Shown one piece after another: positions 22,253-50,561 of a DNA stretch of 64,000 bases. The notes under the pieces are model-generated. The model had not been told where the DNA came from and ran no database searches. It saw only the letters and a program-made list of their open reading frames with translations. Numbering within the stretch: position 1 is the first letter of the stretch; the number at the start of each line of letters is the position of its first letter. The translations under genes were made by a program, and so were the position numbers. This DNA is from Streptomyces sp. JB150 (GTDB lineage: Bacteria > Actinomycetota > Actinomycetes > Streptomycetales > Streptomycetaceae): positions 569,686-633,685 of the forward strand of contig NZ_CP049780.1 in the NCBI RefSeq assembly GCF_011193355.1. Direction: 5' to 3'.

Positions 22253-24484
<2,232 letters not shown>

Positions 24485-24501
24485 CTAGTGGATCACGGTG
24501 C

Positions 24502-24939
24502 TCAGGAACTGCTGGTGGTGGAACAGCCGGGGCACAGACCCCAGTAGATGACCTCGGCCTCGTCGATGGCGAAGCCGCGGTCGTCGGACGCGGTGAGACA
24601 GGGGGCGTGGCCGACGGCGCAGTCGACGTCGGCGACGGCGCCGCACGAGCGGCACACGAGGTGGTGGTGGTTGTCGCCGACCCGGCCCTCGTAGCGGGCC
24701 GGGGAGCCCGGGGGCTCGATACGGCGTACGAGTCCGGCCGCGGTGAGCGCGTGCAGCGCGTCGTACACGGCCGGAAGGGAGATCCGGCCCACGCGCTCGC
24801 GCACACCGGCCGCGACGGCCTCGGCGTCCAGGTGGCCGCCGGCCCGCACGGTGTCGAGCAGCGCGACACGGGCCGCCGTCACCCGCAGGCCTGCGCCACG
24901 CAGCTCGTCGGCGGTGGTCGGGGTCCCGGATGCGGTCAC
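24502..24939 (-). CDS. furA: FurA-type peroxide-sensing repressor
   Basis: A 145-residue Fur-family repressor. The winged helix (RVTAARVALLDTVRAGGHLD, AVYDALHALTAAGLVRRIEP) is followed by the dimer domain with the metal site HHHLVCRSCGAVADVDC and a C-terminal CPGC, the structural zinc cysteines. FurA homologues repress their own gene and katG and are inactivated by oxidation. I chose the GTG at 24939 (VTASGTPTTADELRG) because a TAGCTT box ends 7 bases before it, giving a leaderless transcript; a TTG at 24948 would overlap that box. Confidence 0.9.
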   Translation of the reverse strand: MTASGTPTTADELRGAGLRVTAARVALLDTVRAGGHLDAEAVAAGVRERVGRISLPAVYDALHALTAAGLVRRIEPPGSPARYEGRVGDNHHHLVCRSCGAVADVDCAVGHAPCLTASDDRGFAIDEAEVIYWGLCPGCSTTSSS

Positions 24940-24946
24940 GGGGGCC

Positions 24947-24997
24947 AAGCTACCGCGTAAACACGAACAATTAAAGAAAACAAACGGTTCAAGTTTG
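24947..24997 (-). promoter_or_regulatory. furA promoter and candidate FurA operator
   Basis: An AT-rich island unlike its surroundings precedes furA. On the minus strand TAGCTT (24952-24947) is placed for initiation at the GTG itself; no good -35 is visible. Upstream, CAAAC-N7-GTTTG (24981-24997) is an inverted repeat inside an A/T-rich stretch (TTAAAGAAAACAAACGG), the likely repressor site. Confidence 0.5.
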
Positions 24998-25080: not shown

Positions 25081-27156
25081 TCAGCCGCTGTGGACGCTGA
25101 CCTCGCGGAGGGAGTAACCCCAGTCCGTGCCGCGCTCCAGGCCCTGGACGCGGACGTACCGGGCGGGTGCCGGGGTGAAGCGCGCGGTGTCCAGTCCGCC
25201 GTCGCCGGACGTGGTGGACCAGGCGGTCCGCCAGGTGTCCCCGTCGGTGGACAGCTCGACGCGGTACGCCCTGCCGTAGGCGCGTTCCCAGTCGAGGGTG
25301 ACCCGGCCGACGAGGTGGGTGGCGCCCAGGTCGACGGTCAGCCACTGGTCGTCGCTCCACTCGCTGGCCCAGCGGGTGCCGGGCTCGCCGTCGACGGCGC
25401 GGCCGGGCGCGAAGCTCGTGAAGGGGTTCCACCACTCGGTCGAGCTCGCGGTGGCGGTGGCGCCGCGGGCGAGGTCGGTCCCGGACCGGTGCCGCTCGGT
25501 CGCGCCCCAGGTGCCGAGGTAGGACTCGGCGCCGCGGAACAGGTCGTCCACCACGTCCTGGCCGCCGACCCGCCGGATGTCCTCGATCCAGTCGGGGACG
25601 AGGCCGTAGTGGGCGGCGCCGTCGGTGTTGAGGTCCCAGGTGCGCTCGCCGGTGGTCTGGCGGTCGAGGAGGGAGCCGCCGTCGGCGCTGCGGAAGGGGT
25701 AGCGGACCGGGTTGCCGGTGTCGGTGCCGCGGGGGGCGGGCCAGCCGCCGAGGCCGTTCATGTCGGTGCCGTAGCCGTAGCCGGCGCCGTACTTCTCGCG
25801 CAGCGCGTCGGTGCGCCGCGCCTCCGCGGTGAAGTGCTCGGAGCCGTGCATGTACTGGGCGACGAAGCCGCCGAGGCGGTAGACGCGCTCGGTCCAGTTC
25901 AGGTCCATCCAGCTGTGCGAGGAGAGCACGCCCGGGTAGGACTCGGCCTCGAAGATGTCGAGCACCCGGCCGGTGGCCTTGACGCTCATGTGGTCGATCT
26001 CGAGCATCATCTTGCGCTGCATCATGCCGCGCACGGCGTACTCGCCGAGCGGGGTGAGCCCGCGCACGTTGCAGCGGGCGTCCGCGTCGTACGACGGGAC
26101 GCTCACGCCGGCCGGCAGCCGCTTCTCCGCCTCCGGCGCGGCCGCGAGACCGATCGGGTTGTCGGCCTGCGGGCCCGTGCACTTCTCGGTCTTCCAGAAG
26201 GTGCCGGTGGACAGGAACTGTCCGACGTTGATCGCGGTGCCGAGGGCGCCGGAGTCGAAGCGGACCCCGCACAGCGCGTTGTCGAACTTGTGGCACAGGA
26301 ACATGCTGCGCACGCCCAGCGAGTGCAGCTCGTCCAGGCCCTTGTCGATGTCCTCCTTGTCGCACTGGGGCACGTCGAGGACCTGCTTGCAGCCGAACGG
26401 CTCGGAGGTCTCCACGCCGAGGATCACGGCCAGCTTGCCCTGCTCGATGACCCGGCGGGCCTGGGCGCTGTCGGTGACGATCCGGAACCAGCCCTTTCCG
26501 GGTCCGCCGTACATGCGGTCGACGTACGCCTGGAGGTCGTACGTCAGTTTCGCCTGGAGCCGGATGGACGTCATCTCGTCGCAGGAGCGGTCCTTGAAGA
26601 AGTAGACCGAGCAGATCACGCCATTGGTGACGAGGTCGTTGACCATGACGCGCTGGCCGCCGCGCCAGGCCCGTTCGATCCAGGCGTAGTAGTTCTGCTG
26701 ATGGGTCAGCGAGTCGTGGGCGGGCCAGTCCGCGAAGGTGGGCCAGCCGACGGGGTCGTGCCGGCCGTCGCCGCCGTTGGTGATGAAGTCGAAGATCGCG
26801 AGCGAGCCGTCGGGGTAGTGCTCCGGGCAGTCCTTGAGAGCGTCGGCGATGCCCGCGTCGGAGAACGGCTTGCCGCAGAGGAGCTGGCCGCCGAAGGCCT
26901 CGTTGGAGAACAGGTGGTTGTGGGCGTCGACGAATCCGCGCACCCGGCCCTGGGCGTCGGTGCCGGTGAACGGCTCGCCGGTGACGCCGATGCGGGAGTC
27001 GGGGGCGGGGCGCGCGACCGGGTTCCACCAGTCGTCGCCGGCGGCGGACTGCGGGGCGGGGCCGAGGGCCATGGCCAGGGCGAGGAGGAGCAGCGTGACG
27101 ACGGTGACGTTCTTCCGCCCGGCGTGCTTTCGCGTGCGGTACCAGCGTGGAGCCAT
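25081..27156 (-). CDS. Secreted dipeptidase/amidohydrolase-like protein with C-terminal F5/8 type C (discoidin) domain
   Basis: A 691-residue exported protein. After MAPRWYRTRKHAGRKN comes a signal helix (VTVVTLLLLALAMALGPAP). The large central domain looks like a metal-dependent TIM-barrel hydrolase of the membrane-dipeptidase/amidohydrolase type: VDAHNHLFS near the start, EIDHMSVKATGRVLDI, then SSHSWMDLN and YGTDMNGLGG as likely metal-site segments. The last 140 residues form a discoidin-like sugar-binding domain (GATATASSTEWWNPF, DGEPGTRWASEWSDDQWLTV, RYVRVQG). Substrate unknown; the discoidin domain suggests attachment to a polysaccharide. The ATG at 27156 with GGGGAG 5 bases upstream is preferred to the ATG at 27177. 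Confidence 0.75.
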   Translation of the reverse strand: MAPRWYRTRKHAGRKNVTVVTLLLLALAMALGPAPQSAAGDDWWNPVARPAPDSRIGVTGEPFTGTDAQGRVRGFVDAHNHLFSNEAFGGQLLCGKPFSDAGIADALKDCPEHYPDGSLAIFDFITNGGDGRHDPVGWPTFADWPAHDSLTHQQNYYAWIERAWRGGQRVMVNDLVTNGVICSVYFFKDRSCDEMTSIRLQAKLTYDLQAYVDRMYGGPGKGWFRIVTDSAQARRVIEQGKLAVILGVETSEPFGCKQVLDVPQCDKEDIDKGLDELHSLGVRSMFLCHKFDNALCGVRFDSGALGTAINVGQFLSTGTFWKTEKCTGPQADNPIGLAAAPEAEKRLPAGVSVPSYDADARCNVRGLTPLGEYAVRGMMQRKMMLEIDHMSVKATGRVLDIFEAESYPGVLSSHSWMDLNWTERVYRLGGFVAQYMHGSEHFTAEARRTDALREKYGAGYGYGTDMNGLGGWPAPRGTDTGNPVRYPFRSADGGSLLDRQTTGERTWDLNTDGAAHYGLVPDWIEDIRRVGGQDVVDDLFRGAESYLGTWGATERHRSGTDLARGATATASSTEWWNPFTSFAPGRAVDGEPGTRWASEWSDDQWLTVDLGATHLVGRVTLDWERAYGRAYRVELSTDGDTWRTAWSTTSGDGGLDTARFTPAPARYVRVQGLERGTDWGYSLREVSVHSG

Positions 27157-27373
27157 ACCCACTCCCCTGTTTGCCATGTCCGCGCCAATCGCGTGCGTCG
27201 AGCATCCCGACCGGGGCCTCGGGAGTCAAGGAGATCGGCCGAAGGACGGTGCCAACCGGGCGTAAAGCGACCAGAGAATGGATAGGGGGCTATACGGCGA
27301 AGCTCGGGAAGGGGCGGGAACGGTCGGGCGGGCCCGGGGGCGCCGGGTCTGGCATGCGGGCGGAGGGGCGGGC

Positions 27374-28855
27374 ATGGGCGGGCATCCCTTGTATCTCGAA
27401 CCACGACTGGGCGCGCGTACCGGCTCGTTGCTGGAGTCCCCGCGGCTCCTGCACGCACTCACCGACGGGCTCGGCTCACCGCTGAACGTGGTGATCCCCG
27501 ATCAGATCGCGGACAACGTCGCGGAGTTCCGCTCCGTCTACGCGAAACACCATCTGCCGGGCCAGGTGTTCTACGCGCACAAGGCGAACCGCTCCAGCGC
27601 CCTGCTGCGCCGGCTGGCCGCCACGGACGCCGGGGTCGACGTCGCGTCCCTGGACGAGTTGCGGCACGCGCTGGGCGCCGGCTTCACCCCCGACCGCGTC
27701 ACGGCCACCGGCCCGAAGAACACCGAGTTCCTGTGGCTGGCCGCCCGCAGCTCCGTCACCGTCAGCGTCGACAGCCGGGGCGAGCTGGAACAACTGGCGG
27801 CGCTGGTACGGCGGTTCGGGCTGCCGCCGGTGCGGGTGCTGCTGCGTCTGTCGGGGTTCGAGGCGTCCGGTGTGCGGGTGCTGAGCCGGCGCAGCCGCTT
27901 CGGTACGCCGGTGCGGGCGGCCGGGTCGCTGCTGGCGGCGGCCGAGTCGTACCGGGACGCGGTGGAGCCGGTGGGCGTGGCCTATCACCTCGACACCACC
28001 AGCGTCGACGAGAAGGCGACCGCGCTGGAGGGCTGCCTGCGGGTCCTGGAGGAGTGCCGCGACCGGGGGCTGCGGCCCCGGGCCGTCGACGTGGGCGGCG
28101 GGTTCGGACTCGACTACCTGGCCGACGGCGAGCAGTGGCAGCGCTACACGAGCGCGCTCACCGACGCCGTCCTCGGACTGCGGCCACCACTGACCTGGGG
28201 CGGGCACGGCTACGGACTGCGCAACGAGGGCGGCACCCTGCGCGGCGCGCTCGGCCTCTACCCCGCTCACCGGCCGGTCGCCGGCGCCCGCTACCTCGAC
28301 GAACTGCTCGCCCACCCCGCCCCGTCGCTGGACGGCCGGCCGCTGGGCGCGCTGCTGGCGGAACATCTGTACGACCTCCACACCGAGCCGGGACGAGCCC
28401 TGCTGGACCAGTGCGGGCTGACCCTCGCGAAGGTGCTGGAGGTGCGCGAGCCGGAGCCCGGCGGGGAGCTGCACGTGCGGCTGGCGGCGAACGCCGGCGA
28501 CATCGGCCTGGAGGAACACGGCGTCCTGCTGGACCCCGTCGTCGTCCCCCGCGCCGGCCGTGGCCCCGCCCCGGCCGGACCCGGCGAGGCGCCGGTCGCC
28601 GTGCACCTCTTCGGCAATCTCTGCCTGGAGTCGGACCTGATCACCCGCCGCACGGTCTTCCTGCCGCACCGGCCCGAGCCGGGCGACCTGATGGCGTTCG
28701 TGAACACCGCCGGCTACTGCATGGACTTTCACGCCACCCTGGCCCAGCGGCAGCCCGTCGCCCGCAAGGTCGCCGCCTGGCAGGAGGACGGCGGGTGGCA
28801 CTGGTGCCTGGACGATCAGTACTGGCCGACCACCTCCGTGGGGGGAGCACAGTGA
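27374..28855 (+). CDS. Fold-type III PLP-dependent decarboxylase-like enzyme (Y4yA type)
   Basis: A 493-residue enzyme of the diaminopimelate/ornithine decarboxylase fold (alanine-racemase barrel plus beta domain). K70 in FYAHKANRSS is the PLP lysine; H205 (YHLDTTSVDEKA), the phosphate loop GGGFG (241-245), EPGR (338-341) and C417 in GNLCLESD are the equivalents of the canonical catalytic residues. Spacing inserts and the unusual CLESD/AGYCMDF motifs set it apart from true LysA, so decarboxylation of an unusual amino acid is expected. The ATG at 27374 has GGAGG 7 bases upstream. It overlaps the next gene by 4 bases and starts a three-gene PLP/sulfur operon whose product is unknown. Confidence 0.85.
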   Translation: MGGHPLYLEPRLGARTGSLLESPRLLHALTDGLGSPLNVVIPDQIADNVAEFRSVYAKHHLPGQVFYAHKANRSSALLRRLAATDAGVDVASLDELRHALGAGFTPDRVTATGPKNTEFLWLAARSSVTVSVDSRGELEQLAALVRRFGLPPVRVLLRLSGFEASGVRVLSRRSRFGTPVRAAGSLLAAAESYRDAVEPVGVAYHLDTTSVDEKATALEGCLRVLEECRDRGLRPRAVDVGGGFGLDYLADGEQWQRYTSALTDAVLGLRPPLTWGGHGYGLRNEGGTLRGALGLYPAHRPVAGARYLDELLAHPAPSLDGRPLGALLAEHLYDLHTEPGRALLDQCGLTLAKVLEVREPEPGGELHVRLAANAGDIGLEEHGVLLDPVVVPRAGRGPAPAGPGEAPVAVHLFGNLCLESDLITRRTVFLPHRPEPGDLMAFVNTAGYCMDFHATLAQRQPVARKVAAWQEDGGWHWCLDDQYWPTTSVGGAQ

Positions 28856-30171
28856 GGTACGACAGCATCACCGAGGCCATCGGCAACACCCCGTTGGTGC
28901 GCATCGAGCCGGCCGTGCACGGTCTGCGCCACATCGACCTGTACGCCAAGCTGGAACTGCTCAACCCGTTCGGCTCGGTCAAGGACCGGGCCGCGTGGAA
29001 CATGGCCCGCCCGCACCTGGATACCGCGGCGGCGCGGGGCAGCCAGGTCGTGGAGCTGTCCAGCGGGAACACGGCGAAGGCGCTGGCCGTGCTCGCGGGC
29101 ATGCACGGGCTGACCTTCAGAAGCGTCACCAACCGGATGCGGATCCCCGAGATCAAGGATCTGCTGCTGCTGCTCGGCGCGGAGATCGAGGAGCTGCCGG
29201 GCCAGAGCGAGTGCCTGGACCCGACCGCCACCGACGACCCGCTGACCCTGTTCCACCGGACGATCTCGGAGCAGGGCAGCGCGTACCTGCACACCGACCA
29301 GTACTTCAACCCGCGCAACACCGAGGCGCATCTGACCGGCACCGGCCCGGAGATCGTCAAGGACCTGGACGGCCGCGCCCCGGACTGGTTCGTCGCCTGC
29401 GTGGGCACCGCGGGCTCCTCGACGGGGGTCGCCCGGGTGCTGCGGGAGAACGACCCCGCGGTGCGGGTCCTCGGGCTGGTCGCGGCCAAGTCCGACTTCA
29501 TCCCCGGCATCCGCACCCTCGACGAGGCGCACGAGGTGGGCCTGTTCGACCCGGCCACCTACGACGCGATCGAGTCCGTCACCTCCGACGAGGCGATCGA
29601 GGGGATGCTCACCCTGAACCGCCGCTGCGGCATCCTGGCCGGACCCACCGGCGGGGCCGCCTACTTCGGTGCGGTGCGCCGGCTGCGCGAGATCGACGCG
29701 GAGCTGACGGAGCGTCGGTCGGCGGTGTTCATCGTCTGCGACCGGGTGGAGAGCTATCTGAGCTACGTCCGCAAACGGCGCCCCGACCTGTTCGGCCGCC
29801 CGGTCCGCACCGACTCGCCGGCCGACCTGACCGAGGACGAGGTGCGCACGGCCCCGTCCGTCGGCGTCGCCGAGGCCCGCGCCTGGATCGGCACCGGCCG
29901 GCCGCTCGTGGTGGACCTGCGCAGCCCGTTCGCGTACGCCGCGCTGCACATCGACGGATCGGTCAACATCGTCGACGAGGTCTTCGAGGAACTGCTGCGC
30001 GGCGGGCTGCCGTTCAGCCGCAGCCGTCCGGTGCTGCTGGCGTGTCCGGTGGGTGAGAAGTCCGCCCGCTACGCGGCGCTGCTGACCCGGATGGGCCACC
30101 CGGACGTGCGCAGTCTGGCCGGCGGGATCATCGCCTGGCGGGACGCGGGCGCGCCCCTGGTGCGGGACTGA
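28852..30171 (+). CDS. Cysteine synthase-like PLP enzyme fused to a rhodanese domain
   Basis: A 439-residue fusion. Residues 1-340 are a fold-type II beta-replacement enzyme: K44 in PFGSVKDRAAWN binds PLP, SSGNT (70-74) is the substrate loop, and GTAGSSTG is the phosphate-binding loop. The usual GxSSG near the end is AGPTGGA, so the substrate may differ from O-acetylserine. Residues 345-439 are a rhodanese domain with the active-site C398 in LACPVGEKSARYA, able to carry a persulfide. The fusion suggests that sulfur on C398 is delivered to the aminoacrylate intermediate of the PLP domain. The start GTG overlaps the preceding stop (GTGA). A desulfurase gene follows 5 bases later and is a plausible sulfur donor. 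Confidence 0.88.
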   Translation: MRYDSITEAIGNTPLVRIEPAVHGLRHIDLYAKLELLNPFGSVKDRAAWNMARPHLDTAAARGSQVVELSSGNTAKALAVLAGMHGLTFRSVTNRMRIPEIKDLLLLLGAEIEELPGQSECLDPTATDDPLTLFHRTISEQGSAYLHTDQYFNPRNTEAHLTGTGPEIVKDLDGRAPDWFVACVGTAGSSTGVARVLRENDPAVRVLGLVAAKSDFIPGIRTLDEAHEVGLFDPATYDAIESVTSDEAIEGMLTLNRRCGILAGPTGGAAYFGAVRRLREIDAELTERRSAVFIVCDRVESYLSYVRKRRPDLFGRPVRTDSPADLTEDEVRTAPSVGVAEARAWIGTGRPLVVDLRSPFAYAALHIDGSVNIVDEVFEELLRGGLPFSRSRPVLLACPVGEKSARYAALLTRMGHPDVRSLAGGIIAWRDAGAPLVRD

Positions 30172-30176
30172 CGGCC

Positions 30177-31394
30177 ATGACCACCTCCGGCATCCGCGCC
30201 CAGGGCACCGCCGCGCTCACCGAGTTACGGGACTGGCAGCGCGCGCTGCGCGACCAGTTCCCCATCGTCACCGCCCACCCCGACCTCGCCTATCTGGACA
30301 GCGCGGCCACCGCCCAGAAGCCGCGGGCCGTGCTCGACACGGCACTGACCTACCTCACCACGACCAACGCCAACGCCGGGCGCGGCACCTATCCGTGGGC
30401 CAACCGCAGCACCGCGCTGATCGAGGAGGCGCGCGAGCGGGTCAAGCGGTTCCTCGGCGACCCCGACCCCGCGCGCTCGGCGGTGCACTTCACCAGCGGC
30501 ACCACCGAGGGGCTGCGCACCCTGGCCCGCGACTGGCTGCCCTCGTTCCTCTCCGACGGCGACGAGATCGTCGTCCCCGTCGCCGACCACCAGGCGAACA
30601 TCGAGCCGTGGCTGGAAGCCCAGCGGCTGCTGGCCCGGCAGGGCGTGCGCGTCCTGCTCCGGCCGATGCCGTACCAGCCGGGCTCGGGCGACTACGACCA
30701 CCGGGCGCTCGCCGAACTGGCCGGTCCGCGCACCCGGTTCGTCGCCGTCACCCACGTCCACCACGTGTACGGCGGCGACATGAACGTGCACCGGATCCGC
30801 GAGGCGGTCGGTCCGGACGCGGTCATCTGCCTGGACGCCGCCCAGAGCGTCGGCCATGTGCCGGTGTCGGTGGCCGGCCTGGACGTGGACTTCGTCGTCT
30901 TCTCCGGGCACAAGGCAATGGCCCTGCCGGGGACGGGCGCCGTGTGGGCGCGGCAGGCGCGCGGGCCCGCGTTCACACCGGGCGGGTGGTCCGGCACGCC
31001 CAACACCGTCGGCATCGCCTCCCTGACGGCGGCCCTGGACTGGCTGGACGCGGCCGGTGTCGACCGGATCGAGCGGTGGACGGTGGCGCTCGCGGCCCGG
31101 CTGACCGACGGACTGCGCCGGCTGGACGCCTACGAGATCCTGGGCTGCCAGACCAGTCTCGCCGCCGGCTCACCCGTCCAGCAGCGCCGCGGCATCGTCA
31201 CCTTCCGGCACCGCGGCGTCGACTCCGGCGACCTCGGGTTCATCCTGTTCAGCCACGGCTTCATGGTCCGCTCCGACCAGCACTGCCAGGGCGAGGCGGG
31301 CGAGCCGACCGGCTCCGTACGGGTGAGTCTGCACGTCTACAACGAGGCGGAGGAGATCGACCGGCTGCTGTCCGTCCTGGCGTCACTGGAGTGA
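30177..31394 (+). CDS. SufS-like cysteine desulfurase (class V aminotransferase)
   Basis: A 405-residue fold-type I PLP enzyme. K246 in FSGHKAMALPGTG is the Schiff-base lysine, HFTSGTTEGLR binds the phosphate and VADHQANIEPW holds the cofactor histidine. The mobile catalytic cysteine is kept as C370 in VRSDQHCQGEAGE, followed by the SufS-type ending VRVSLHVYNEAEEIDRL. It should release sulfur from cysteine (or act as a lyase on a related substrate) and form a persulfide. Starting 5 bases after the rhodanese fusion, it is the obvious persulfide donor for it. No suf or isc genes are adjacent, so this copy is specialised. Confidence 0.88.
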   Translation: MTTSGIRAQGTAALTELRDWQRALRDQFPIVTAHPDLAYLDSAATAQKPRAVLDTALTYLTTTNANAGRGTYPWANRSTALIEEARERVKRFLGDPDPARSAVHFTSGTTEGLRTLARDWLPSFLSDGDEIVVPVADHQANIEPWLEAQRLLARQGVRVLLRPMPYQPGSGDYDHRALAELAGPRTRFVAVTHVHHVYGGDMNVHRIREAVGPDAVICLDAAQSVGHVPVSVAGLDVDFVVFSGHKAMALPGTGAVWARQARGPAFTPGGWSGTPNTVGIASLTAALDWLDAAGVDRIERWTVALAARLTDGLRRLDAYEILGCQTSLAAGSPVQQRRGIVTFRHRGVDSGDLGFILFSHGFMVRSDQHCQGEAGEPTGSVRVSLHVYNEAEEIDRLLSVLASLE

Positions 31395-31475
31395 GTGACG
31401 CCGCCACCGAACACATAATGGGAACCGTTTTCACCCGTAGACTCGTCGGACGAACGGGACAGCGGGTGCGAGACG

Positions 31476-32258
31476 GTGAGGTGGCACGACCCCATGGGAC
31501 TGAGCCTGGCGACGGCGGAACGATGGGTGGAGCGCTGGGAGCGCCAGCAGCAGCGGTACGCCATCGACCGTGAGGAGCGCTTCACCGTGATCGCCGACGT
31601 CGTCGAGCACGTCACCGCCGGCCGGCCGGGCCGCCCGCTCGTCGTCGACCTCGGCTGCGGCCCCGGCTCGCTCGCCGCCCGGCTGGCCCGCCGGCTGCCG
31701 GCCGCGGAGATCGTCGGCGTCGACCGGGACCCGCTGCTGCTGGAGCTGGCCCGCACCCACCACCCGGACGCCGCCCGGTACGTCGACGCGGAGATCGACG
31801 CACCGGGCTGGACCGAGGCCCTGGGCCTCGACCGCCCGCTGGACGCGGCGGTGTCCACGACCGCCCTGCACTACCTGGCCCCGGACGCGCTGCGGCGCAC
31901 CTACCGGCGGCTCGCCCGGCTGCTGCGGCCCGGCGGGGTCCTCGTCAACGGCGACCACCTGCCGCACGACGACCCCGCGCTCGCACAGATCGCCGGCGAG
32001 GTGGGCAGCCGCCACGCCGAACGGCAGCGGGCCTGGCCGGAGGAGGACTGGACCTCTTGGTGGACGGCGGTCGCCGAGGACCCGGAACTGACCGACCTCC
32101 TCGCCGAACGCCGCGGCCGCGAGCCCTCGCCCGGCACCCCGGAGCCCGTTCCCCTCTCCCTCTCCACCCACGTCCGGCTGCTGCGCCGGGCCGGGTTCCG
32201 GCAGGCGGGCGCGGTCTGGCAGTACGGTGACAGCCACGTGGTCGTCGCGATTCGCTGA
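31476..32258 (+). CDS. SAM-dependent methyltransferase
   Basis: A 260-residue class I methyltransferase. The SAM-binding motif I is VVDLGCGPGSLAARLARRLP, motif II VGVDRDPLLLELAR, followed by ALDAAVSTTALHYLAP and the post-motif LLRPGGVLVNGDHLP. The C-terminal half is mostly helical and would bind the acceptor, which cannot be told from sequence. It lies 81 bases behind the desulfurase gene on the same strand, so it could finish the product of the PLP/sulfur cassette or be independent. The GTG at 31476 and the ATG at 31494 are both possible starts. Confidence 0.85.
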   Translation: MRWHDPMGLSLATAERWVERWERQQQRYAIDREERFTVIADVVEHVTAGRPGRPLVVDLGCGPGSLAARLARRLPAAEIVGVDRDPLLLELARTHHPDAARYVDAEIDAPGWTEALGLDRPLDAAVSTTALHYLAPDALRRTYRRLARLLRPGGVLVNGDHLPHDDPALAQIAGEVGSRHAERQRAWPEEDWTSWWTAVAEDPELTDLLAERRGREPSPGTPEPVPLSLSTHVRLLRRAGFRQAGAVWQYGDSHVVVAIR

Positions 32259-42224: not shown

Positions 42225-42289
42225 GGCGGCGCTCAGAAGGCGTACCGGCGGGCGTCCGCCGCAGTGGCGGCGCTCAGAAGGCGTACCGG
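42225..42289. repeat. 24-bp direct duplication at the end of the radical-SAM gene
   Basis: A 24-base sequence (GGCGGCGCTCAGAAGG followed by CGTACCGG) occurs at 42225-42248 and 42266-42289, 41 bases apart. The second copy contains the last codons and the stop (RYAF-stop on the minus strand) of the gene; the first is a spare copy of that 3' end outside it. Confidence 0.9.
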
Positions 42290-43449
42290 ACGCGCAGCCA
42301 CGGTGTGTGGCGGTCGATGAGCGTGCGCAGGGCGGCCACCGCCTCCGCCTTGACCGCGTTGCGGTAGCGGACGTTCACCGCGCCGTTCTCGGAGCGCTTG
42401 GCCTGCTGGAGGTCCGGCTGCCACAGGACGTCCTCGGCGCGCGGGTGCCAGCCGAGGTTGACCTCGTGCAGCTCCCGGTTGTGCGTCAGCATGATCACCT
42501 CGGCGGCGGCCTGCCGCTTCACCCGCTGGGGCAGCACGTCGTCGAGCCGGGTCAGCAGCTCCGCCCAGGCCTCCTGCCAGCCGGGGCGGATCACCACGGG
42601 CGAAAGGTTGAAGTGCACCTCGTACCCGGCGTCCAGGAAGTCCGCGGCGGCGGCGACGCGCTCGGCGACGGGTGAGGTGCGCACGTCCAGCAGCCGGGAG
42701 TCGTCCGGCGGCATCAGCGAGAAGCGGATCCGGGTGCGGCCCCGCGGGTCCAGGGCGAGCAGGTCGGGGTTGACGAACTTGGTGGCGAAGGACGCCTTCG
42801 CGGTGGGCCACTGCCGGAAGGCGTGCACGAGATCCGCGGTGTTGTCGCAGATCAGGGCGTCCACCGAGCAGTCGCCGTTCTCGCCGACGTCGTACACCCA
42901 GGACACGTCGTCGCACTGGTTCGGCTCGGTCTTGGGCCCCTGCCGCGCGATGTGCCGGGCGATGCCGGCGATGATCCGGTCGATGTTGGTGAAGACGGTG
43001 ATCGGGTTGGCGTACCCCTTGCGCCGGGGCACATAGCAGTAGGCGCAGGCCATGGCGCAGCCGTTGGAGGCGCCCGGCGCGATCCAGTCCGCGGACCGGC
43101 CGTTGGGGCGCACGGTGAGCGCCTTGCGCTCCCCCAGGACCAGCGTCTCCCCCTTGACGCGGACCCAGCGCTCGACGTTCCCCTCGTTGCCGTGCAGTCC
43201 GGGGATGCGCCAGTGCGAGTCGACGGTGATCAGCCGCGCCTCGGGGAACCGGGCGATGATCTGCCGGCCGCGTGGGGAGGCGGCCGCCGCGGGCTCGGCG
43301 TGGATCTCCCGCACGAACAGCAGCCGGCGGGCCGTGGCGGAGTCGCGGAACAACGGTCCTTCGGGAACCTTCGCCGGCTCGCCGCCGAGGGCGTCGAGGC
43401 CGAAGAGCGTGCCGGAGCCGTCGTCCGGGACGGGGGACGGGTGGTGCAT
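42274..43449 (-). CDS. Radical SAM protein of the spore photoproduct lyase family
   Basis: A 391-residue protein. The radical-SAM cluster motif CxxxCxxC is seen in NGCAMACAYCYVPRRKG near residue 140; WIAPGASNGCAMACAYC, KTEPNQCDDVSWVYDVGENG and FSLMPPDDSRLLD are typical of the SPL-family proteins of actinobacteria. True spore photoproduct lyase repairs thymine dimers of the spore type; whether this branch does so is unknown. The ATG at 43449 was chosen because the family's N-terminus (LFGLDALGGEPAKVPEGPLF) starts shortly after it. Confidence 0.87.
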   Translation of the reverse strand: MHHPSPVPDDGSGTLFGLDALGGEPAKVPEGPLFRDSATARRLLFVREIHAEPAAAASPRGRQIIARFPEARLITVDSHWRIPGLHGNEGNVERWVRVKGETLVLGERKALTVRPNGRSADWIAPGASNGCAMACAYCYVPRRKGYANPITVFTNIDRIIAGIARHIARQGPKTEPNQCDDVSWVYDVGENGDCSVDALICDNTADLVHAFRQWPTAKASFATKFVNPDLLALDPRGRTRIRFSLMPPDDSRLLDVRTSPVAERVAAAADFLDAGYEVHFNLSPVVIRPGWQEAWAELLTRLDDVLPQRVKRQAAAEVIMLTHNRELHEVNLGWHPRAEDVLWQPDLQQAKRSENGAVNVRYRNAVKAEAVAALRTLIDRHTPWLRVRYAF

Positions 43450-43689
43450 GGCTGCTCCGGTGCGAGGGTGCGCGGACGCGAGGATGCGCGGGGTTCGGTC
43501 TGGTGCCCGGGGTACCGCCGGCGCGTGGTGTGCGGCCGGTACGGTACGCCGCTTCCCCTCCACTGTACGGGGCTCACCGCACGTCCCCGCCGGCTCACGG
43601 CCCGTACCGGGTGTCGCCGGAACGGAGTGCGGCGGAGCAGTATGGACAGACGTCACCTGTCGCCGGCCGGGGAAGGAGGGGAGGGCATC

Positions 43690-44574
43690 ATGCGACTGCC
43701 CCCGAGCCTGGACCCGCTGCGCGACCGGATGGGCGAGGCGATCTTCTCGCGGGTCGCCGGGCCGCAGGGCGCGCGGAACCGGGCGCACATCCACGGCGCG
43801 CCGGGTCCGCGCTGGTTCGGCCCCGAGCGGCCGGTCCGCCAGGTCCACGGCGACGCGTCGATGTTCATCGGCGGCCTGGCCGCCCTGCTGCTGCAGTCGC
43901 TGCACCCGCTGGCCATGGCCGCTGTGGCCGCGCACTCCGGCTTCCGCGGTGACCCCTGGGGGCGGCTGCAGCGGACCAGCACCTTCCTCGCCGTCACCAC
44001 CTACGGCCCGGCCGGCAGCGCGCAGGCGGCCTGCGACCGGGTGCGGGCGGTCCACGAGCGGGTCCGCGGCACCACCGCCGACGGCCTCCCGTACGCCGCC
44101 TCGGACCCGCACCTGCTGTGCTGGGTGCACATCGCGGAGGTCGACTGCTTCCTGCGCGCCCACCAGCGCTACGGCGCCCGCCCGCTGGACGACGCCGGCT
44201 GCGACGGGTACGTCGCGGACATGGCCCGTATCGCCACCGCGCTCGGCATTCCCGACCCGCCGGCCGACCGCGCCGGCCTCGCGGACCGGCTCGCCGCCTA
44301 CCGCGGTGAGCTGCGGGCGACGCCCGAGGCCCGCAGCACGGCGCGGTATCTGCTGCTGCGGCCGCCCGTCCCACTGGTGGCGCGGGTGCCCTACGGGGCC
44401 GTCGCCGCGTCCGCCGTCTCGCTGCTGCCGCCGTGGGCGGCCCGGGCCCTGTGGCTGCCCCGGCTCCCGGTGGCCGAGGAGGTGTGCGTACGCCCGCTCG
44501 GCACGGCCGTCACCGCGGGGATCCGCTGGGCGATGGCCCCGCGCCGGGAGGCGGCGGACGGGGGCCGGGCCTGA
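43690..44574 (+). CDS. MpaB/DUF2236-type oxygenase
   Basis: A 294-residue protein of the oxygenase MpaB / latex-clearing protein (DUF2236) family, a haem-b, all-helical fold. Family landmarks are VRQVHGDASMFIGGLAALLLQ near residue 60, SLHPLAMAAVAAHSGFRGDPWG, TSTFLAVTTYG, then ADGLPYAASDPHLLCWVHIAE with the conserved H and D/E. Substrates of most bacterial members are unknown; characterised relatives cleave isoprenoid double bonds. The ATG at 43690 follows GGAGG and GAGG sites. Confidence 0.85.
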   Translation: MRLPPSLDPLRDRMGEAIFSRVAGPQGARNRAHIHGAPGPRWFGPERPVRQVHGDASMFIGGLAALLLQSLHPLAMAAVAAHSGFRGDPWGRLQRTSTFLAVTTYGPAGSAQAACDRVRAVHERVRGTTADGLPYAASDPHLLCWVHIAEVDCFLRAHQRYGARPLDDAGCDGYVADMARIATALGIPDPPADRAGLADRLAAYRGELRATPEARSTARYLLLRPPVPLVARVPYGAVAASAVSLLPPWAARALWLPRLPVAEEVCVRPLGTAVTAGIRWAMAPRREAADGGRA

Positions 44575-44933
44575 CACCGGGATGACGGGACCGCGGCGGG
44601 CAGAACCGGCCGAGACGACGTATTCGCCACCGACGGCCCGGTCGCCGCCGGAGTTCAGGTGATCATGTGCCGGGGAACCGACGCGGGTCCTCGCCCAACC
44701 GCGTGCCCTGGGCCCGCCGGGCTCCCGAAGCTCGACTCCCGTGGAGCGGCGGCGAGTTCACTCCGCCGGTGGACGGACCTGCGCCGTTGGATGACCTCCC
44801 CCGGCGGCGACGGTGACCGGAGGCTCACCGACCGGATGACAGCCTGCAGACATATCGGACGCCGCCGGGGACGCCGCCGTATCTCCTCTAAACTCGGCGG
44901 AGTTCACGTCGAGCCGGTGGGAGGAGGGGGAGC
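44575..44933. other. Gene-free stretch
   Basis: No reading frame here looks protein-like on either strand. The end carries GTGGGAGGAGGGGGAGC, the ribosome-binding region of the next gene; CTCCTCTAAACTCGGCGGAG just before it has an A/T-rich centre that could be a -10 region. Nothing else recognised. Confidence 0.4.
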
Positions 44934-46027: not shown

Positions 46028-47890
46028 CTATTCCGCCCGCCGGCCCACGACGTGCGTGGCGGCCAGTTCGCGGTAGGCCGGGCTGGTCGCGAGCAGTTCG
46101 TCGTGCCGGCCGGAGGCCACCGTGCGGCCGCCTTCGAGGACGACGATCCGGTCGGCGTGGCGCACGGTGGCGAGGCGGTGGGTGATGACGAGGACCGCGC
46201 AGTCCCGTGTGAGGGCGGTCAGCGACCGGGTGAGTGCCGTCTCGTTGACGGCGTCGAGGTGCGAGGTGTGCTCGTCGAGCAGGAGCAGCCGGGGACGGGC
46301 GAGCAGGGCGCGGGCCAGGGCGACGCGCTGGCGCTCCCCCGCCGACAGGGTGCCGCCCCGGTCGCCCAGTGCGCCGTCCAGGCCGCCGGGCAGGCGCCGC
46401 ACGACGTGGTCGAGCCGGGTCAGCTCCACGACGCTGCGGATGTCGTCCTCGGTCGCGCCGGGAGCGGCGTAGACGAGGTTCTCGCGGAGTGTGCCTTCCA
46501 GGACGTGGGTGTTCTGGTCCACCAGGGCGATGCCCGCGCGGCACTCCTGGCGGCTCAGGGCGGTCGCCGGGCGGCCGTCGAAGCGGATGGTGCCGGCGTC
46601 GGGGTCGTAGAGGCGGGCGATCAGCGCGAAGAGGGTGCTCTTGCCGGCTCCGGAGCGGCCGACGAGGGCGACGAGTCCGCGGTGCGGGACGGTGAGGGTC
46701 GCCCCGCGCAGGACGGGGCGGCCGGGGACGTAGGCGAAGCGGATGCCGGTCAGTTCCAGCGCGGGTACCGGGTCCGGTGGGGCGGCCGGGGCCGGTGAGG
46801 CCGCCGGCGGCGGGGCGGGGACGGTGGGGCCGGGCCGCTGGGCGGGTTCCTCGGGCAGGGCGAGGACCTCGTTGATCCTGAGGTACGCGCCGGTGCCGCG
46901 CTGGATCAGGCCGATGGCGCGGAACACCGACGACAGGGGCATGACCAGGTACGAGGCGTACAGCAGGAAGGCGACCAGGTCGCCGAGGGAGTCCGCGCCT
47001 CCGCTCCCGACCCGCATCCCGCCGACGACCAGGACCAGCAGGAAGGAGCCCTGGACGGCCAGTTCGACCGCGCTGCTCATGATCGCGGCCAGCTTCGCCG
47101 CCCGCACGCCCGACCCGTGCGCCGCGTCCACCCGCTCGCCGATACGGCGTGCCTCACGTTCCTCGGCCCGGTACACCCGGACCACCGGCAGGGCGCCGAG
47201 GGCCCGTTCCAGTTCGGCGGCGACCGCGCCCACGGAGGACTGCATCCGCTCCGACGCCACCCGCATGCCCTTCAGGAGGGTGGTGACGACGGCCGCGGCG
47301 AGGGCGACCGTCGCCACGACGAGGAGCAGCAGCAGCGGGTCCAGCCACAACATCAGCAGCAACGCCCCGGCCGAGACCAGGCAGCCGGTGAGGAGGTCGA
47401 CCAGGGCCTGGGAGACGACGTCGCGCAGCAGGGTGGTGTCGGCGGTGACGCGGGAGACCAGGTCGCCGCGGCGGCGCCGGTCCATCTCCCGCATCTCCAG
47501 CCGCAGCAGCCGCGCGACGAGTCCGTGCCGCACCATGCGCACCACGCCCTCGCCCATGCGGTCCAGCAGGAACCGGCCGGTCGCCCCGGCGGTGGCCTCG
47601 GCGGCGAAGAGCGCGGACAGCAGCAGCAGGAACGGCCACAGCACCTCGCCGCGGGCGCCGGCGTCCACCACGTGCTTGGCGAGGAGGGGCTGGGCGAGAC
47701 CGAGCGCGGAGGCGGCCAGGGTCAGCGCGGTCGCGGCGGCGATGGACCGGCGGTGACCGGACGTCAGACGGAACAGGGCGGCGACCGAACCGCCCGTCGT
47801 CCGCCCCGCGCGCCGCCCGGCTCGCCGCGCCGCGTCACCGTCCGGGCCGGTGCCGGCCGGGGCGTCGTCCGCGACGGCCGTGCCGCTCAC
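46028..47890 (-). CDS. ABC exporter of the lasso peptide
   Basis: A 620-residue half-transporter: six-helix membrane domain (about 45-330) and ATPase domain (about 385-620) with Walker A GRSGAGKST (about 411-419), signature LSAGERQRVALARALL (about 515) and Walker B RLLLLDEHTSHLD (about 535). No peptidase C39 domain is present, so it exports an already processed product. Two copies dimerise. The GTG at 47890 overlaps the B2 stop by 4 bases (GTGA), which rejects the longer upstream reading. As the last gene of the lasso operon it should export the mature peptide and provide self-protection. Confidence 0.9.
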   Translation of the reverse strand: MSGTAVADDAPAGTGPDGDAARRAGRRAGRTTGGSVAALFRLTSGHRRSIAAATALTLAASALGLAQPLLAKHVVDAGARGEVLWPFLLLLSALFAAEATAGATGRFLLDRMGEGVVRMVRHGLVARLLRLEMREMDRRRRGDLVSRVTADTTLLRDVVSQALVDLLTGCLVSAGALLLMLWLDPLLLLLVVATVALAAAVVTTLLKGMRVASERMQSSVGAVAAELERALGALPVVRVYRAEEREARRIGERVDAAHGSGVRAAKLAAIMSSAVELAVQGSFLLVLVVGGMRVGSGGADSLGDLVAFLLYASYLVMPLSSVFRAIGLIQRGTGAYLRINEVLALPEEPAQRPGPTVPAPPPAASPAPAAPPDPVPALELTGIRFAYVPGRPVLRGATLTVPHRGLVALVGRSGAGKSTLFALIARLYDPDAGTIRFDGRPATALSRQECRAGIALVDQNTHVLEGTLRENLVYAAPGATEDDIRSVVELTRLDHVVRRLPGGLDGALGDRGGTLSAGERQRVALARALLARPRLLLLDEHTSHLDAVNETALTRSLTALTRDCAVLVITHRLATVRHADRIVVLEGGRTVASGRHDELLATSPAYRELAATHVVGRRAE

Positions 47891-48321
47891 CTCGCCGCCC
47901 GCCGCGCCGGGGCCACCGTCACCAGCCGGGCGAAGTAGTCGTCCGGGACGCCCTCCCCCACGGGACGGCCGCCGGCCTCGATCCAGGCGTGGGCGGAGAA
48001 CGGCGGAACCTTGCGCACGCCGGTGCACCAGGTGGGCCAGGCCCCGTACAGGCGGCACAGCAGGGCCGCCCCCAGCGACCGCGGCAGGCAGCCGCGCGGT
48101 CCCGCGCAGCGCAGGCTCACGGCGCACATCGCCTCACGGGCGGCCGCGGCCTGCGCGGGGGTGGCGGGGCGTGCCCCGCGGCGCACCCACCCCAGTACCG
48201 CGCGGATGTGACGCGGCGGCAGGAAGGACAGGGCCAGCGCGGGCACCAGGACGAGGCGGGCGGCCAGGCGGCGGGCGAGGGGGACTCCGGTGGGCCGGTC
48301 GAGGGCGCTGGGGGTGGTCAT
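47887..48321 (-). CDS. Lasso peptide leader peptidase (B2, transglutaminase-like)
   Basis: A 144-residue cysteine protease that removes the leader peptide before ring closure. The catalytic C78 lies in GPRGCLPRSL and H111 in PPFSAHAWIEAGG, the standard B2 arrangement; the third residue would be the acidic position after HAW. The N-terminal RRLAARLVLVPALALSFLPP is the usual hydrophobic helix. Overlaps B1 by 4 bases and the transporter by 4 bases. Confidence 0.92.
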   Translation of the reverse strand: MTTPSALDRPTGVPLARRLAARLVLVPALALSFLPPRHIRAVLGWVRRGARPATPAQAAAAREAMCAVSLRCAGPRGCLPRSLGAALLCRLYGAWPTWCTGVRKVPPFSAHAWIEAGGRPVGEGVPDDYFARLVTVAPARRAAR

Positions 48322-48572
48322 GCGACCAGCCCCGCGTCGCGCAGTTCGCGCACCAGTGCCGTGACGTCCTGTTCGGCGCGGTCGCGGTCGATGTCGAACC
48401 GCTCGACCAGTGCCGTGACGGCCGCCGTCTCGTCGCCGTCGTCCATGAGGGTGCGCACCACGAGGGCGCCCGTGGGGTTGAGTTCCCAGTACTCACCGCT
48501 GCGCTGGTCGAGGAGGACCGTCCCGTACTGGGTCTCCGCGGTGGAGACGTCCTGGTGGAATCGGAGCGTCAT
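48318..48572 (-). CDS. Lasso peptide RiPP recognition element (B1, PqqD-like)
   Basis: An 84-residue RRE domain with the PqqD fold: YGTVLLDQRSGEYWELNPTG, VVRTLMDDGDE, ALVERFDIDRDRAEQD, LVRELRDAGLV. It binds the YxxPxL motif of the leader and presents the precursor to B2 and the cyclase. Overlaps B2 by 4 bases; 138 bases separate it from the cyclase gene. Confidence 0.92.
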   Translation of the reverse strand: MTLRFHQDVSTAETQYGTVLLDQRSGEYWELNPTGALVVRTLMDDGDETAAVTALVERFDIDRDRAEQDVTALVRELRDAGLVA

Positions 48573-48710
48573 GCGAATCGGCGCCTTTCTGCTGTCGTGG
48601 TCGTCCGACGGCGGGCCGGGGTGCGCCCTCCCGGCCGTCCGCCGTGCGAGTCGGAGTGCGGGGCGTGGTGCGGTCCCGGTCGTTCCGCGCGGCTCGGGAC
48701 GCGGTGCCGG

Positions 48711-50561
48711 TCATCCGACGGCGGGGCGGGGCGCGCGGTCCCGGGAGCGCAGCCACACCTCGCAGGCGATGGTCGAGTAGAGGATCGCGTCGCGCAGGCC
48801 CGGCGCGGAGGGCCGCTGGGCGAGCCGGCGCAGCTGCTCGCCGTCGACCAGGCCGAGGCGTTCCAGCCGGGAGTCGCTCCACAGGGTCATCAGGTCACCC
48901 CGGTGCCGGCGCAGCCCGTCGGAGGCGTCCATCGAGGCCTCGGCCTTGTTGGCGCGCCGCAGGCAGGCGTCCGGGACGACACCGCGCATCGCCTCGGTGA
49001 GCAGCGGTTTGTACTGCCAGGGCGTGACGCGTTCGTCGGGCCGGACCGCCAGGCACGCCTCGATCACCCGGTCGTCCAGGTACGGCGACGCCATGGGGAG
49101 TCCCGCCCGGGTGGCCATGCGCTCCCACTGGCGGATGATGCGGGTGCAGGTGCGGATCAGCTCCAGGTCGGTGTGCAGGCCGCGGTCCGGGTGCAGCGGC
49201 TCGGCGTGCGCTGCCGAGTCCAGCAGGGCCTCGCGGGCCAGCCGTTCCGTCTCGGGTGTCATCCAGGGGAACAGGCGGGGTGCCATGCCCCAGCCGAGGC
49301 TGCCGGTCACCGAGGACTCGGGCATCGGGGTGCGCAGCTGCCGGGCGGAGTCCGCCAGCCAGCGGGGGTAGGCGCGGGTGTCGGCGAGGGCGCGCGCGGT
49401 CGCGCCGAGCGGCCAGTTCCACAGGGCGCGGAAGCCGCGCAGCCGGCTCAGCGCGAACAGCGGCCGGGTGCGCAGCAGCCGGTGGTAGTACGCCTCCGAG
49501 CACCAGGCGACGTGGTCGCCGCCGATGCCGGTGAGGTGCACCCGGCTGCCGCGTTCGGCCAGCCAGGGCAGGTGTTGCAGGACGCGGGAGCGGTCCATGA
49601 CCCCGATGGTCGGTTCGTCGAGGAGGTCGTCGATGCCGAGCAGGTCCGAGTAGACCAGCGCGGAGGCGTCCGCGTCCCAGACGACGTGCTCGGTCCTGGG
49701 CAGGTGTTCGGCCGCCTGCCGGGCCCAGGCGAGGTCGGTGTCGGCGGGGTCCCGGCCCGGCCAGGTCGCCGCGAGCACGGAGGCGGAGGAGCGGGCGGCC
49801 AGGAAGCAGACGGAGGTGGAGTCCAGTCCGCCGGACAGGTCGCAGCTGACCACCCCGCCCGGCCGGGTCCGCAGGTCGACGGCCTCGGCGAGTGCCGCGC
49901 GGACGGCGGGGGCGCCCCGGGTGAGGGTGCGGACCGGCTCCGGGGGCCACCACCAGCGTGAGGTGCGGGCCCGCCGTCCGTCCGCGGAGACGATCAGGGC
50001 GTCGTGCGGGGAGACCGCGTCGACGCCCTGCCACACCGAGGTCTCGTAGAGCGGATGCGGCACGGGCCACAGCAGCCGGACGGCCAGCCGGCCGGTGTCC
50101 GGGCGGCTGTCCAGGGCCGTGGCGAGCAGGTCGGCGCTGGTCGCGGCGATGTGGACGCCGCCGATGCGCGCGTGGAAGACGAGCCGCAGGCCGGAGGCGG
50201 TGCCCTGGATCCTGACCTGCCCGTCGTGGGCGGCGACCAGGTGGAAGCTGCCCGGCAGGGAGCGGGCGAGGTCGTCGAGTTCGGTGAGGTCGCGCATGCG
50301 GGCGGCGCGGCGTTCGAGCCGCGGCCGGTCGGCCGCGCACCATCCGACGGCGGCGAGGGCCGTCGTACCGGCGCGCGCGGTGACGATCTCCGTGCCGGAC
50401 CAGTGGCCGATCAGCCAGGGGCGGCCGGAGGCGTGGGTCAGGACACGGGTGCCGGGGTGGCGGAAGAAGCGGGCCGCGGCGGCCGCCTCCTCGCAGTCGG
50501 GGAAGACCGCGAAGTGGGCGTCACCGCGACCCGTTTCCGCACTCTCGTGCATGTCGGACAT
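48711..50561 (-). CDS. Lasso peptide macrolactam synthetase (asparagine-synthetase-like cyclase, C)
   Basis: A 616-residue ATP-dependent enzyme that adenylates the side chain of the ring Asp and joins it to the N-terminus of the core. The glutaminase-like N-terminal half (FAVFPDCEEAAAAARFF ... GSFHLVAAHDG) lacks the catalytic Cys of real asparagine synthetases; the C-terminal half has the pyrophosphatase loop SGGLDS at 243-248 (CDLSGGLDSTSVC) and LTGIGGDHV. Start ATG at 50561 with GGGA upstream, 27 bases behind the precursor gene; a second ATG at 50552 is possible. Confidence 0.93.
   Translation of the reverse strand: MSDMHESAETGRGDAHFAVFPDCEEAAAAARFFRHPGTRVLTHASGRPWLIGHWSGTEIVTARAGTTALAAVGWCAADRPRLERRAARMRDLTELDDLARSLPGSFHLVAAHDGQVRIQGTASGLRLVFHARIGGVHIAATSADLLATALDSRPDTGRLAVRLLWPVPHPLYETSVWQGVDAVSPHDALIVSADGRRARTSRWWWPPEPVRTLTRGAPAVRAALAEAVDLRTRPGGVVSCDLSGGLDSTSVCFLAARSSASVLAATWPGRDPADTDLAWARQAAEHLPRTEHVVWDADASALVYSDLLGIDDLLDEPTIGVMDRSRVLQHLPWLAERGSRVHLTGIGGDHVAWCSEAYYHRLLRTRPLFALSRLRGFRALWNWPLGATARALADTRAYPRWLADSARQLRTPMPESSVTGSLGWGMAPRLFPWMTPETERLAREALLDSAAHAEPLHPDRGLHTDLELIRTCTRIIRQWERMATRAGLPMASPYLDDRVIEACLAVRPDERVTPWQYKPLLTEAMRGVVPDACLRRANKAEASMDASDGLRRHRGDLMTLWSDSRLERLGLVDGEQLRRLAQRPSAPGLRDAILYSTIACEVWLRSRDRAPRPAVG

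Follow-up and report, generated by a model that had tools for sequence, protein, structure and literature searches.

A conserved four-gene PLP and sulfur cassette of Streptomyces with a predicted Zur operator, probably a zinc-starvation pathway

What is made by a pyridoxal phosphate (PLP)-dependent decarboxylase, a cysteine synthase-like enzyme fused to a rhodanese, and a SufS-like enzyme when their genes stand side by side? Such a trio lies in a 64,000-nucleotide stretch of Streptomyces sp. JB150 (contig NZ_CP049780.1, positions 569,686 to 633,685 of the forward strand), the whole of which is called the window below and is numbered from its first nucleotide. The genome is a single contig of 7.3 Mb, and its closest named relatives are Streptomyces. 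A sequence-only reading of the window had described the trio as a cassette that fits no described pathway. From the comparisons presented here, we conclude that the cassette is probably a zinc-starvation pathway governed by the zinc repressor Zur, whose product would be a small molecule that binds zinc, a metallophore (zincophore) being the most likely kind.

The first gene (27374..28855, plus strand, as are the other three) encodes a fold-type III PLP decarboxylase of the Orn/DAP (ornithine/diaminopimelate) decarboxylase superfamily, called Dec here (Pfam PF02784 Orn_Arg_deC_N, E 5.7e-27). It is followed by the gene of a CysM-like enzyme of the beta-replacement type that carries a fused rhodanese domain (28852..30171; PF00291 PALP, E 1.6e-53, and PF00581 Rhodanese, E 4.1e-15) and that of a SufS-like PLP enzyme with a sulfur-carrying cysteine (30177..31394; PF00266 Aminotran_5, E 6.3e-74). 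The positions of these three open reading frames (ORFs), the 4-base overlap between Dec and CysM-rhodanese, and the 5-base gap before SufS were correctly given by the sequence-only reading, and the trio is real. As a unit it was incomplete, since an S-adenosylmethionine (SAM)-dependent methyltransferase (MT; 31476..32258; PF13649, E 7.5e-17), which starts after an intergenic distance of 81 bases, also belongs to it. Of 35 homologous loci, 32 had the same 4-base overlap when start codons were picked by script. An in-frame ATG at 27278, upstream of the Dec start, was ruled out as the start codon because the residue encoded at 27374 is the first one of the closest homologues.

The unit is conserved well beyond the window. 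At E ≤ 1e-100, the CysM-rhodanese fusion was found in 35 of 150 Streptomyces genomes, that of the window included. We compared 35 loci other than the window (33 from the CysM-rhodanese-positive Streptomyces genomes, plus L001 and L002, the latter being the record of G019), and all of them carried Dec, CysM-rhodanese, SufS, and MT, unchanged in order and strand; the MT match was only partial in L035 and L046. A second set of 84 loci, which overlaps the first (80 are named, partly from the same strains), had the four genes in order in 78. The remaining six were L070 (MT present and reversed), L071 and L072 (of a distant Nocardia type), L104 (a contig end), L106 (an MT piece 11 kb away), and L127 (Dec cut by the contig start, and no MT). 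As the locus sets overlap, 131 loci collapse to 121 unique ones. Among the named loci are ones from Kitasatospora, Nocardiopsis (where MT is missing), and Couchioplanes (with an MT of 33% identity); in L151, the identity of MT is only 33%. In a sample of the phylum, 5 of 396 genomes matched CysM-rhodanese at E ≤ 1e-70, 3 of the genus of the window (its own genome included) and 2 of another genus. Poor conservation, which would have told against the sequence-only reading, was thus not seen, and the methyltransferase that this reading had suggested as a partner follows SufS in 35 of 35 loci of the first set and 78 of 84 of the second. No ORF family outside the cassette was common to more than 6 of 36 loci, and with flanks so little shared the four-gene unit looks self-contained and mobile. 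We found no pathway with this gene set in the openly licensed literature searched, as had been supposed, nor did that literature yield a match to a known natural-product cluster. Paulomycin, for which a cysteine desulfurase is described, was considered and rejected: the main text of the paulomycin paper nowhere uses the words rhodanese, cysteine synthase, PLP-dependent, or decarboxylase.

The earlier claim that each enzyme keeps its PLP lysine and that both sulfur cysteines are present held in all rows of the alignments, which comprised 22 rows from a subset of loci picked for diversity. The invariant residues were K70 of Dec; K44, the SSGNTAK loop, and the rhodanese cysteine C398 of CysM-rhodanese; and K246 and the persulfide cysteine C370 of SufS. 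A further alignment of CysM-rhodanese, with 16 of its 19 rows from the distant Nocardia type, kept the lysine and the cysteine in every row, and the lysine and the cysteine of SufS were kept in all 13 rows of an alignment that spans both clades (10 rows of that type). That two clades retain the two sulfur cysteines favors a genuine sulfur relay. C398 sits in a CPVGEKS loop, which fits the CxxGxxS/R catalytic-loop pattern of rhodanese domains.

All curated NCBIfam cutoffs were missed widely, so that the enzymes are relatives, and not members, of the families compared. The best match of Dec was to the diaminopimelate decarboxylase LysA (116.4 bits versus a cutoff of 298), an identity that was therefore rejected. 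The CysM-like domain was rejected as a housekeeping cysteine synthase, CysK or CysM (cysKM, 173.6 versus 344), though K44 is present, as SbnA of 2,3-diaminopropionate synthesis (139.1 versus an equivalog cutoff of 350), and as the cysteate synthase CapA (114.5 versus an equivalog cutoff of 600). It has SSGNTAK where CysM has TSGNTGI and would form a subfamily of its own. The third enzyme scored 254.8 bits against sufS (cutoff, 475) and was matched by SufS structures at E 9e-62; it is SufS-like and distinct from the SufS of Fe-S assembly.

The gap between SufS and MT points to the regulation of the unit. It holds a 15-bp palindrome, TGGGAACCGTTTTCA (31419..31433, listed without strand), which resembles, and is predicted from its motif score and its conservation among such gaps to be, a Zur operator. 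The Zur motif of S. coelicolor is tGaNNatSatNNtCa, and a 21-bp actinobacterial version, taaTGaNAANNNTTNtCANta, is quoted in the excerpted text of PMC5472717; the core of the latter, TGANAANNNTTNTCA, was our scoring string. A site scoring at least 8 of 10 was present in 56 of 74 nonredundant SufS-MT gaps, versus about 0.8 in shuffles, and Zur-like palindromes with at most 3 mismatches to TGAAAATGATTTTCA were present 5' of Dec in 10 of 93 nonredundant regions, versus 0.2 in shuffles, both controls preserving base composition only. The enrichment 5' of Dec was about 9-fold relative to the rest of the loci.

Does the same kind of site mark zinc genes elsewhere? The pattern TGRNAAYSRTTNYCA was composed after the cassette sites had been viewed, so that its independent part is its matches at znu and SBP_bac_5 genes. 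It occurs five times in the 7.3-Mb genome of the window, and its reversed control does not occur. One occurrence is the cassette SufS-MT site. Another ends 3 bases before the longest ZnuA ORF, which is followed by genes of an ATP-binding cassette (ABC) ATPase and an ABC-3 permease (znuACB; the true start may be further in). A third lies about 57 bases 5' of an SBP_bac_5 lipoprotein gene with an ABC ATPase gene downstream, a fourth adjoins a Peripla_BP_2 lipoprotein gene, and the fifth falls between aldehyde dehydrogenase and glycosidase genes, with no obvious link. In 19 other cassette-bearing genomes there were 76 sites versus 2 control sites. Among the 75 sites listed, 17 lie 139 to 228 bases 5' of a ZnuA domain (in 16 of the 19 genomes), 7 lie 57 to 74 bases 5' of SBP_bac_5 (one of these, in G019, being a 56% homologue), 12 are inside the cassette (12 genomes), and 9 are within 10 kb of it. 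On sequence evidence, then, a Zur-type operator stands close to the cassette genes and shares its pattern with the site 5' of znuACB in the same genome. The sequence-only reading, right about a conserved set of enzymes acting together, had overlooked both this operator and the zinc-regulon neighborhood described next.

Genes beside sites near the cassette match ribosomal proteins S14, L28, and type B L31 above the NCBIfam cutoffs, and a COG0523-type GTPase there matches the MRF and ZigA models below theirs; an ArsR/SmtB metalloregulator and a FecCD/BtuC-like permease are also found beside such sites. The S14 and L31 copies near the cassette are without cysteine, as expected of zinc-independent versions. 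According to the excerpted text of PMC6103462, Zur controls ribosomal-protein paralogues of this kind and COG0523. The S14/L28/L31 paralogues were near 17 of the 121 unique cassette loci (2.4 Mb), the COG0523-type GTPase near 13, a His-rich protein near 21, ZnuA near 3, and SBP_bac_5 near 2; at least one of these five zinc markers was found at 36 loci, the marker queries having been drawn from some of the same loci, so that query loci count themselves. The S14 gene is roughly single copy (71 of 101 genomes have it, one of them twice), and it was counted near the cassette at 15 of the 121 loci (14 without the query locus), versus an estimated 0.2 by chance.

The His-rich protein of these 21 loci (L110:6987-7358, L055, L056, L143, and others) is small and conserved, has repeated HxHxHGxxCGH-like motifs and no NCBIfam match, and perhaps binds zinc. 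In L146, at a distance of about 10 kb, there is a nonribosomal peptide synthetase (NRPS) gene with PP-binding, condensation, and AMP-binding domains; an exact match to the Zur motif lies about 99 bases 5' of it, and it perhaps marks a second zincophore cluster.

The cassette also occurs in loci of Nocardia, this identity being deduced from named proteins among the best 120 of 380 matches. In Nocardia copies of the Streptomyces-type cassette, MT was reversed in 13 of 14 loci, and the S. coelicolor Zur motif was matched without mismatch at the 5' end of the reversed MT in seven (L070, L177, L178, L180, L184, L185, and L186), at about +4855 to +4904 relative to the start of Dec. The cassette of L183 faces, in convergent orientation, an oligo_HPY (opp-type) ABC ATPase gene and an SBP_bac_5 gene, the latter divergent from a major facilitator superfamily (MFS) gene, and Zur-type sites are present at the SBP/MFS divergence and 5' of Dec. 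Nocardia has a genus-wide relative, with a match in 118 of 118 genomes searched. We also observed a genus-wide Nocardia operon with the order SufS, HMA protein, Dec, CysM/rhodanese (L071, L072, and L154-L173). A search of 394 genomes of the class found it in three, each of them from that genus, and the organism names of its matches were all Nocardia among the best 120 of 380. The 340-residue N-terminal part of its HMA protein had no family match or convincing fold match.

Several observations weigh against a Zur-governed pathway to a metallophore. Of the 74 gaps, 18 scored below 8, most of them with CTGCAATGATTTTCA or a close variant, and the operator center in Streptomyces is mostly AACCGTT (47 of 56) and not the atSat of the S. 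coelicolor motif. An exact TGRNAAYSRTTNYCA match is missing from the cassette in 7 of the 19 genomes, and 30 of the 75 listed sites fall in none of the assigned gene classes. In the window itself, the Zur-type site is found only at MT: no Zur-like site with at most 4 mismatches is present in the 300 bases 5' of Dec, and the conserved element at the Dec promoter is unrelated to such sites. At 85 of the 121 loci, the available flanks carried none of the five zinc markers. The core Nocardia paralogue carries a copper-chaperone-like domain, and a Zur operator 5' of its operon was rejected, the best sites in 22 loci having 5 to 7 mismatches; sites with 5 mismatches were found in 10 of the 22 versus 1.2 in shuffles, which again preserved base composition only, possibly a weak trace. 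As for transport, there is no transporter among the cassette genes, and SBP_bac_5 is near only 2 of the 121 loci. In favor of a link, 15 of the 35 Streptomyces genomes with the cassette and 13 of the 115 without it had an SBP_bac_5 orthologue (at least 741 bits; Fisher P = 1e-4), but this association hinges on a cut placed at a score gap and is uncorrected for relatedness. It was gone with the wider SBP_bac_5 set (67 genomes at E ≤ 1e-120; P = 0.24, with 19 of 35), and the paralogues by themselves gave P = 0.24.

The missing transporter is what an intracellular product would lead one to expect. The PLP and SAM enzymes might then make a substitute thiol that spares or buffers zinc when the zinc-dependent mycothiol enzymes fail, and both the Zur linkage and the linkage to ribosomal-protein paralogues of the zinc-sparing type are in keeping with this. 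We consider it unlikely, in view of the cut-dependent co-occurrence with a Zur-boxed SBP_bac_5 gene and of the adjacency of such genes to the cassette in L183 and in L110, where an SBP_bac_5 orthologue (69% to that of the window genome) begins at a distance of about 3.4 kb and has a one-mismatch site close to its beginning. The SBP_bac_5 gene of the window genome is Zur-boxed but lies elsewhere, not beside the cassette.

Less likely still is a sulfur natural-product pathway unrelated to zinc, yielding a thiol or persulfide amine, with Zur-type sites gained by chance. Such a pathway would account for the conserved sulfur cysteines and for a fourth gene that varies (methyltransferase, ATP-grasp, HMA protein, CMD-like), as in the tailoring of bioactive compounds, but not for the linkages to the operator, znu, ribosomal paralogues, and SBP_bac_5, which recur in many genomes and in two families. 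The zinc link of the cassette is, in our judgment, well supported in silico, and a secreted metallophore is its likely product.

How might the four enzymes make such a product? Zinc-bound Zur would repress the cassette, and falling zinc would allow its expression. We infer a sulfur route in which the SufS-like enzyme would move sulfane sulfur from cysteine onto C370 and then to C398 of the rhodanese, while the CysM-like domain would turn an activated amino acid of the serine type (probably O-phosphoserine) into an aminoacrylate, to which it would add the delivered sulfur or another nucleophile. Rebuilding cysteine from cysteine would be futile; hence, the acceptor should be another activated amino acid, or else the CysM-like domain uses another nucleophile. 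Dec would strip the carboxyl group to leave an amine, and MT would cap the product. This N,S- or N,O-chelating amine would be exported and its zinc complex taken back, perhaps via the Zur-boxed SBP_bac_5 system encoded elsewhere in the genome. We tentatively suggest that the cassette may represent a new zincophore class, with an aminothiol or sulfur ligand made without an NRPS by PLP and SAM enzymes only, in which cysteine sulfur passes via the desulfurase and the built-in rhodanese into the CysM-like site; it would have spread horizontally in Streptomyces and other actinomycetes and have a copper-chaperone-linked sister pathway throughout Nocardia.

The strongest rival is a chelator resembling the marasmins or ethylenediamine disuccinate (EDDS), so ranked because a fungal rhodanese-like PLP enzyme makes serine-alanine conjugates from O-phosphoserine. 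Here the CysM-like domain would join O-phosphoserine and an amino acid through a C-N bond, Dec would trim the resulting aminopolycarboxylate, and the SufS/rhodanese relay would serve a later thiolation or be secondary. In the excerpted account of PMC12751119, the Fusarium fusadapamide enzyme Fda4 is, like CysM-rhodanese, a PLP enzyme of cysteine-synthase type that carries a rhodanese-like domain; it condenses O-phosphoserine with L-Ala, and the marasmins chelate metal. By that description, the products of Fda4 and aspergillomarasmine synthase are serine-amine conjugates with alanine or aspartate, unlike those of the sulfur route proposed above, and the partner of Fda4 is a flavin adenine dinucleotide-dependent oxidoreductase, no SufS-like or decarboxylase partner being named there (PMC12751119). 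The [S,S]-EDDS pathway of Amycolatopsis japonicum is likewise a Zur-controlled small-molecule chelator pathway in an actinomycete, according to the excerpted text of PMC6103462. A PLP decarboxylase after a CysK-type enzyme would also suit an ethylenediamine-type product. We nevertheless regard a chelator of this type as rather improbable: both sulfur cysteines are invariant in the 22 rows and in both clades, the best-scoring solved structures for the CysM-like domain are CysM sulfhydrylases (O-acetylserine sulfhydrylase B; 139.6 bits, versus 96.7 for SbnA), and the cassette is without a dehydrogenase or lyase. To our knowledge, the [S,S]-EDDS pathway has no rhodanese fusion, SufS-like enzyme, or methyltransferase, all of which are present in the cassette.

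Other known systems share single features with the cassette proposed here as a zincophore pathway. A CysM-like enzyme is common to it and the CysM/CysO system of M. tuberculosis (129 bits); that CysM receives its sulfur from a thiocarboxylate protein carrier, not from a fused rhodanese, and makes cysteine for primary metabolism. Pseudopaline is a Zur-controlled metallophore, as is proposed for the product of the cassette. In the staphylopine and pseudopaline (cnt) systems, an SBP_bac_5-type importer and an MFS exporter are encoded beside the biosynthesis genes, an arrangement that L183 resembles, while their nicotianamine-synthase-like and opine dehydrogenase enzymes are not in the cassette. 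The coelibactin cluster of S. coelicolor is a further case of a Zur-controlled metallophore in Streptomyces; it is NRPS based, whereas the cassette is without an NRPS.

Apart from the predicted operator, the window contains upstream of Dec a conserved two-block element, GGGCGTAAA...CTATACGGC (27258..27298, plus strand), which may be a promoter or an operator. With at most 1 mismatch in each block and a start-to-start spacing of 31 to 32, it was found in 19 of 93 nonredundant Dec-upstream regions, and the CysM-rhodanese of the two-block loci other than the window is 83 to 94% identical to that of the window. In those 19 regions the blocks resemble an inverted repeat (GGCGTAAA / TATACGGC), 22 to 23 bases apart. 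Further upstream, a FUR-family regulator and a catalase-peroxidase (KatG) form a pair (22253-24948), which was rejected as the regulator of the cassette since among 35 loci the pair recurs only in L046, with KatG also in L063. The product of 25081-27177, divergent from the cassette, has an F5/F8 type C domain and matches membrane dipeptidase (M19) weakly; it is kept beside the cassette in L046 and has partial matches 8 to 9 kb off in L053 and L054. Elsewhere in the window, the C-terminal half of a 767-amino-acid ORF (42274-44577) matches the spore photoproduct lyase family PF20903, a family that, as far as we know, would be unexpected in Streptomyces, and an ABC exporter gene and an asparagine-synthase-like gene lie near each other at 46028-50561, possibly as part of a peptide natural-product cluster.

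With the proposed link to zinc, an orphan enzyme trio becomes a testable hypothesis with a growth condition, zinc starvation. Should it hold, roughly one in four Streptomyces species (35 of the 150 sampled) would carry a compact zinc-acquisition pathway that mining centered on NRPS and polyketide synthase genes would miss, a definite role could be assigned to the CysM-rhodanese fusion, and a genus-wide Nocardia relative would become interpretable.

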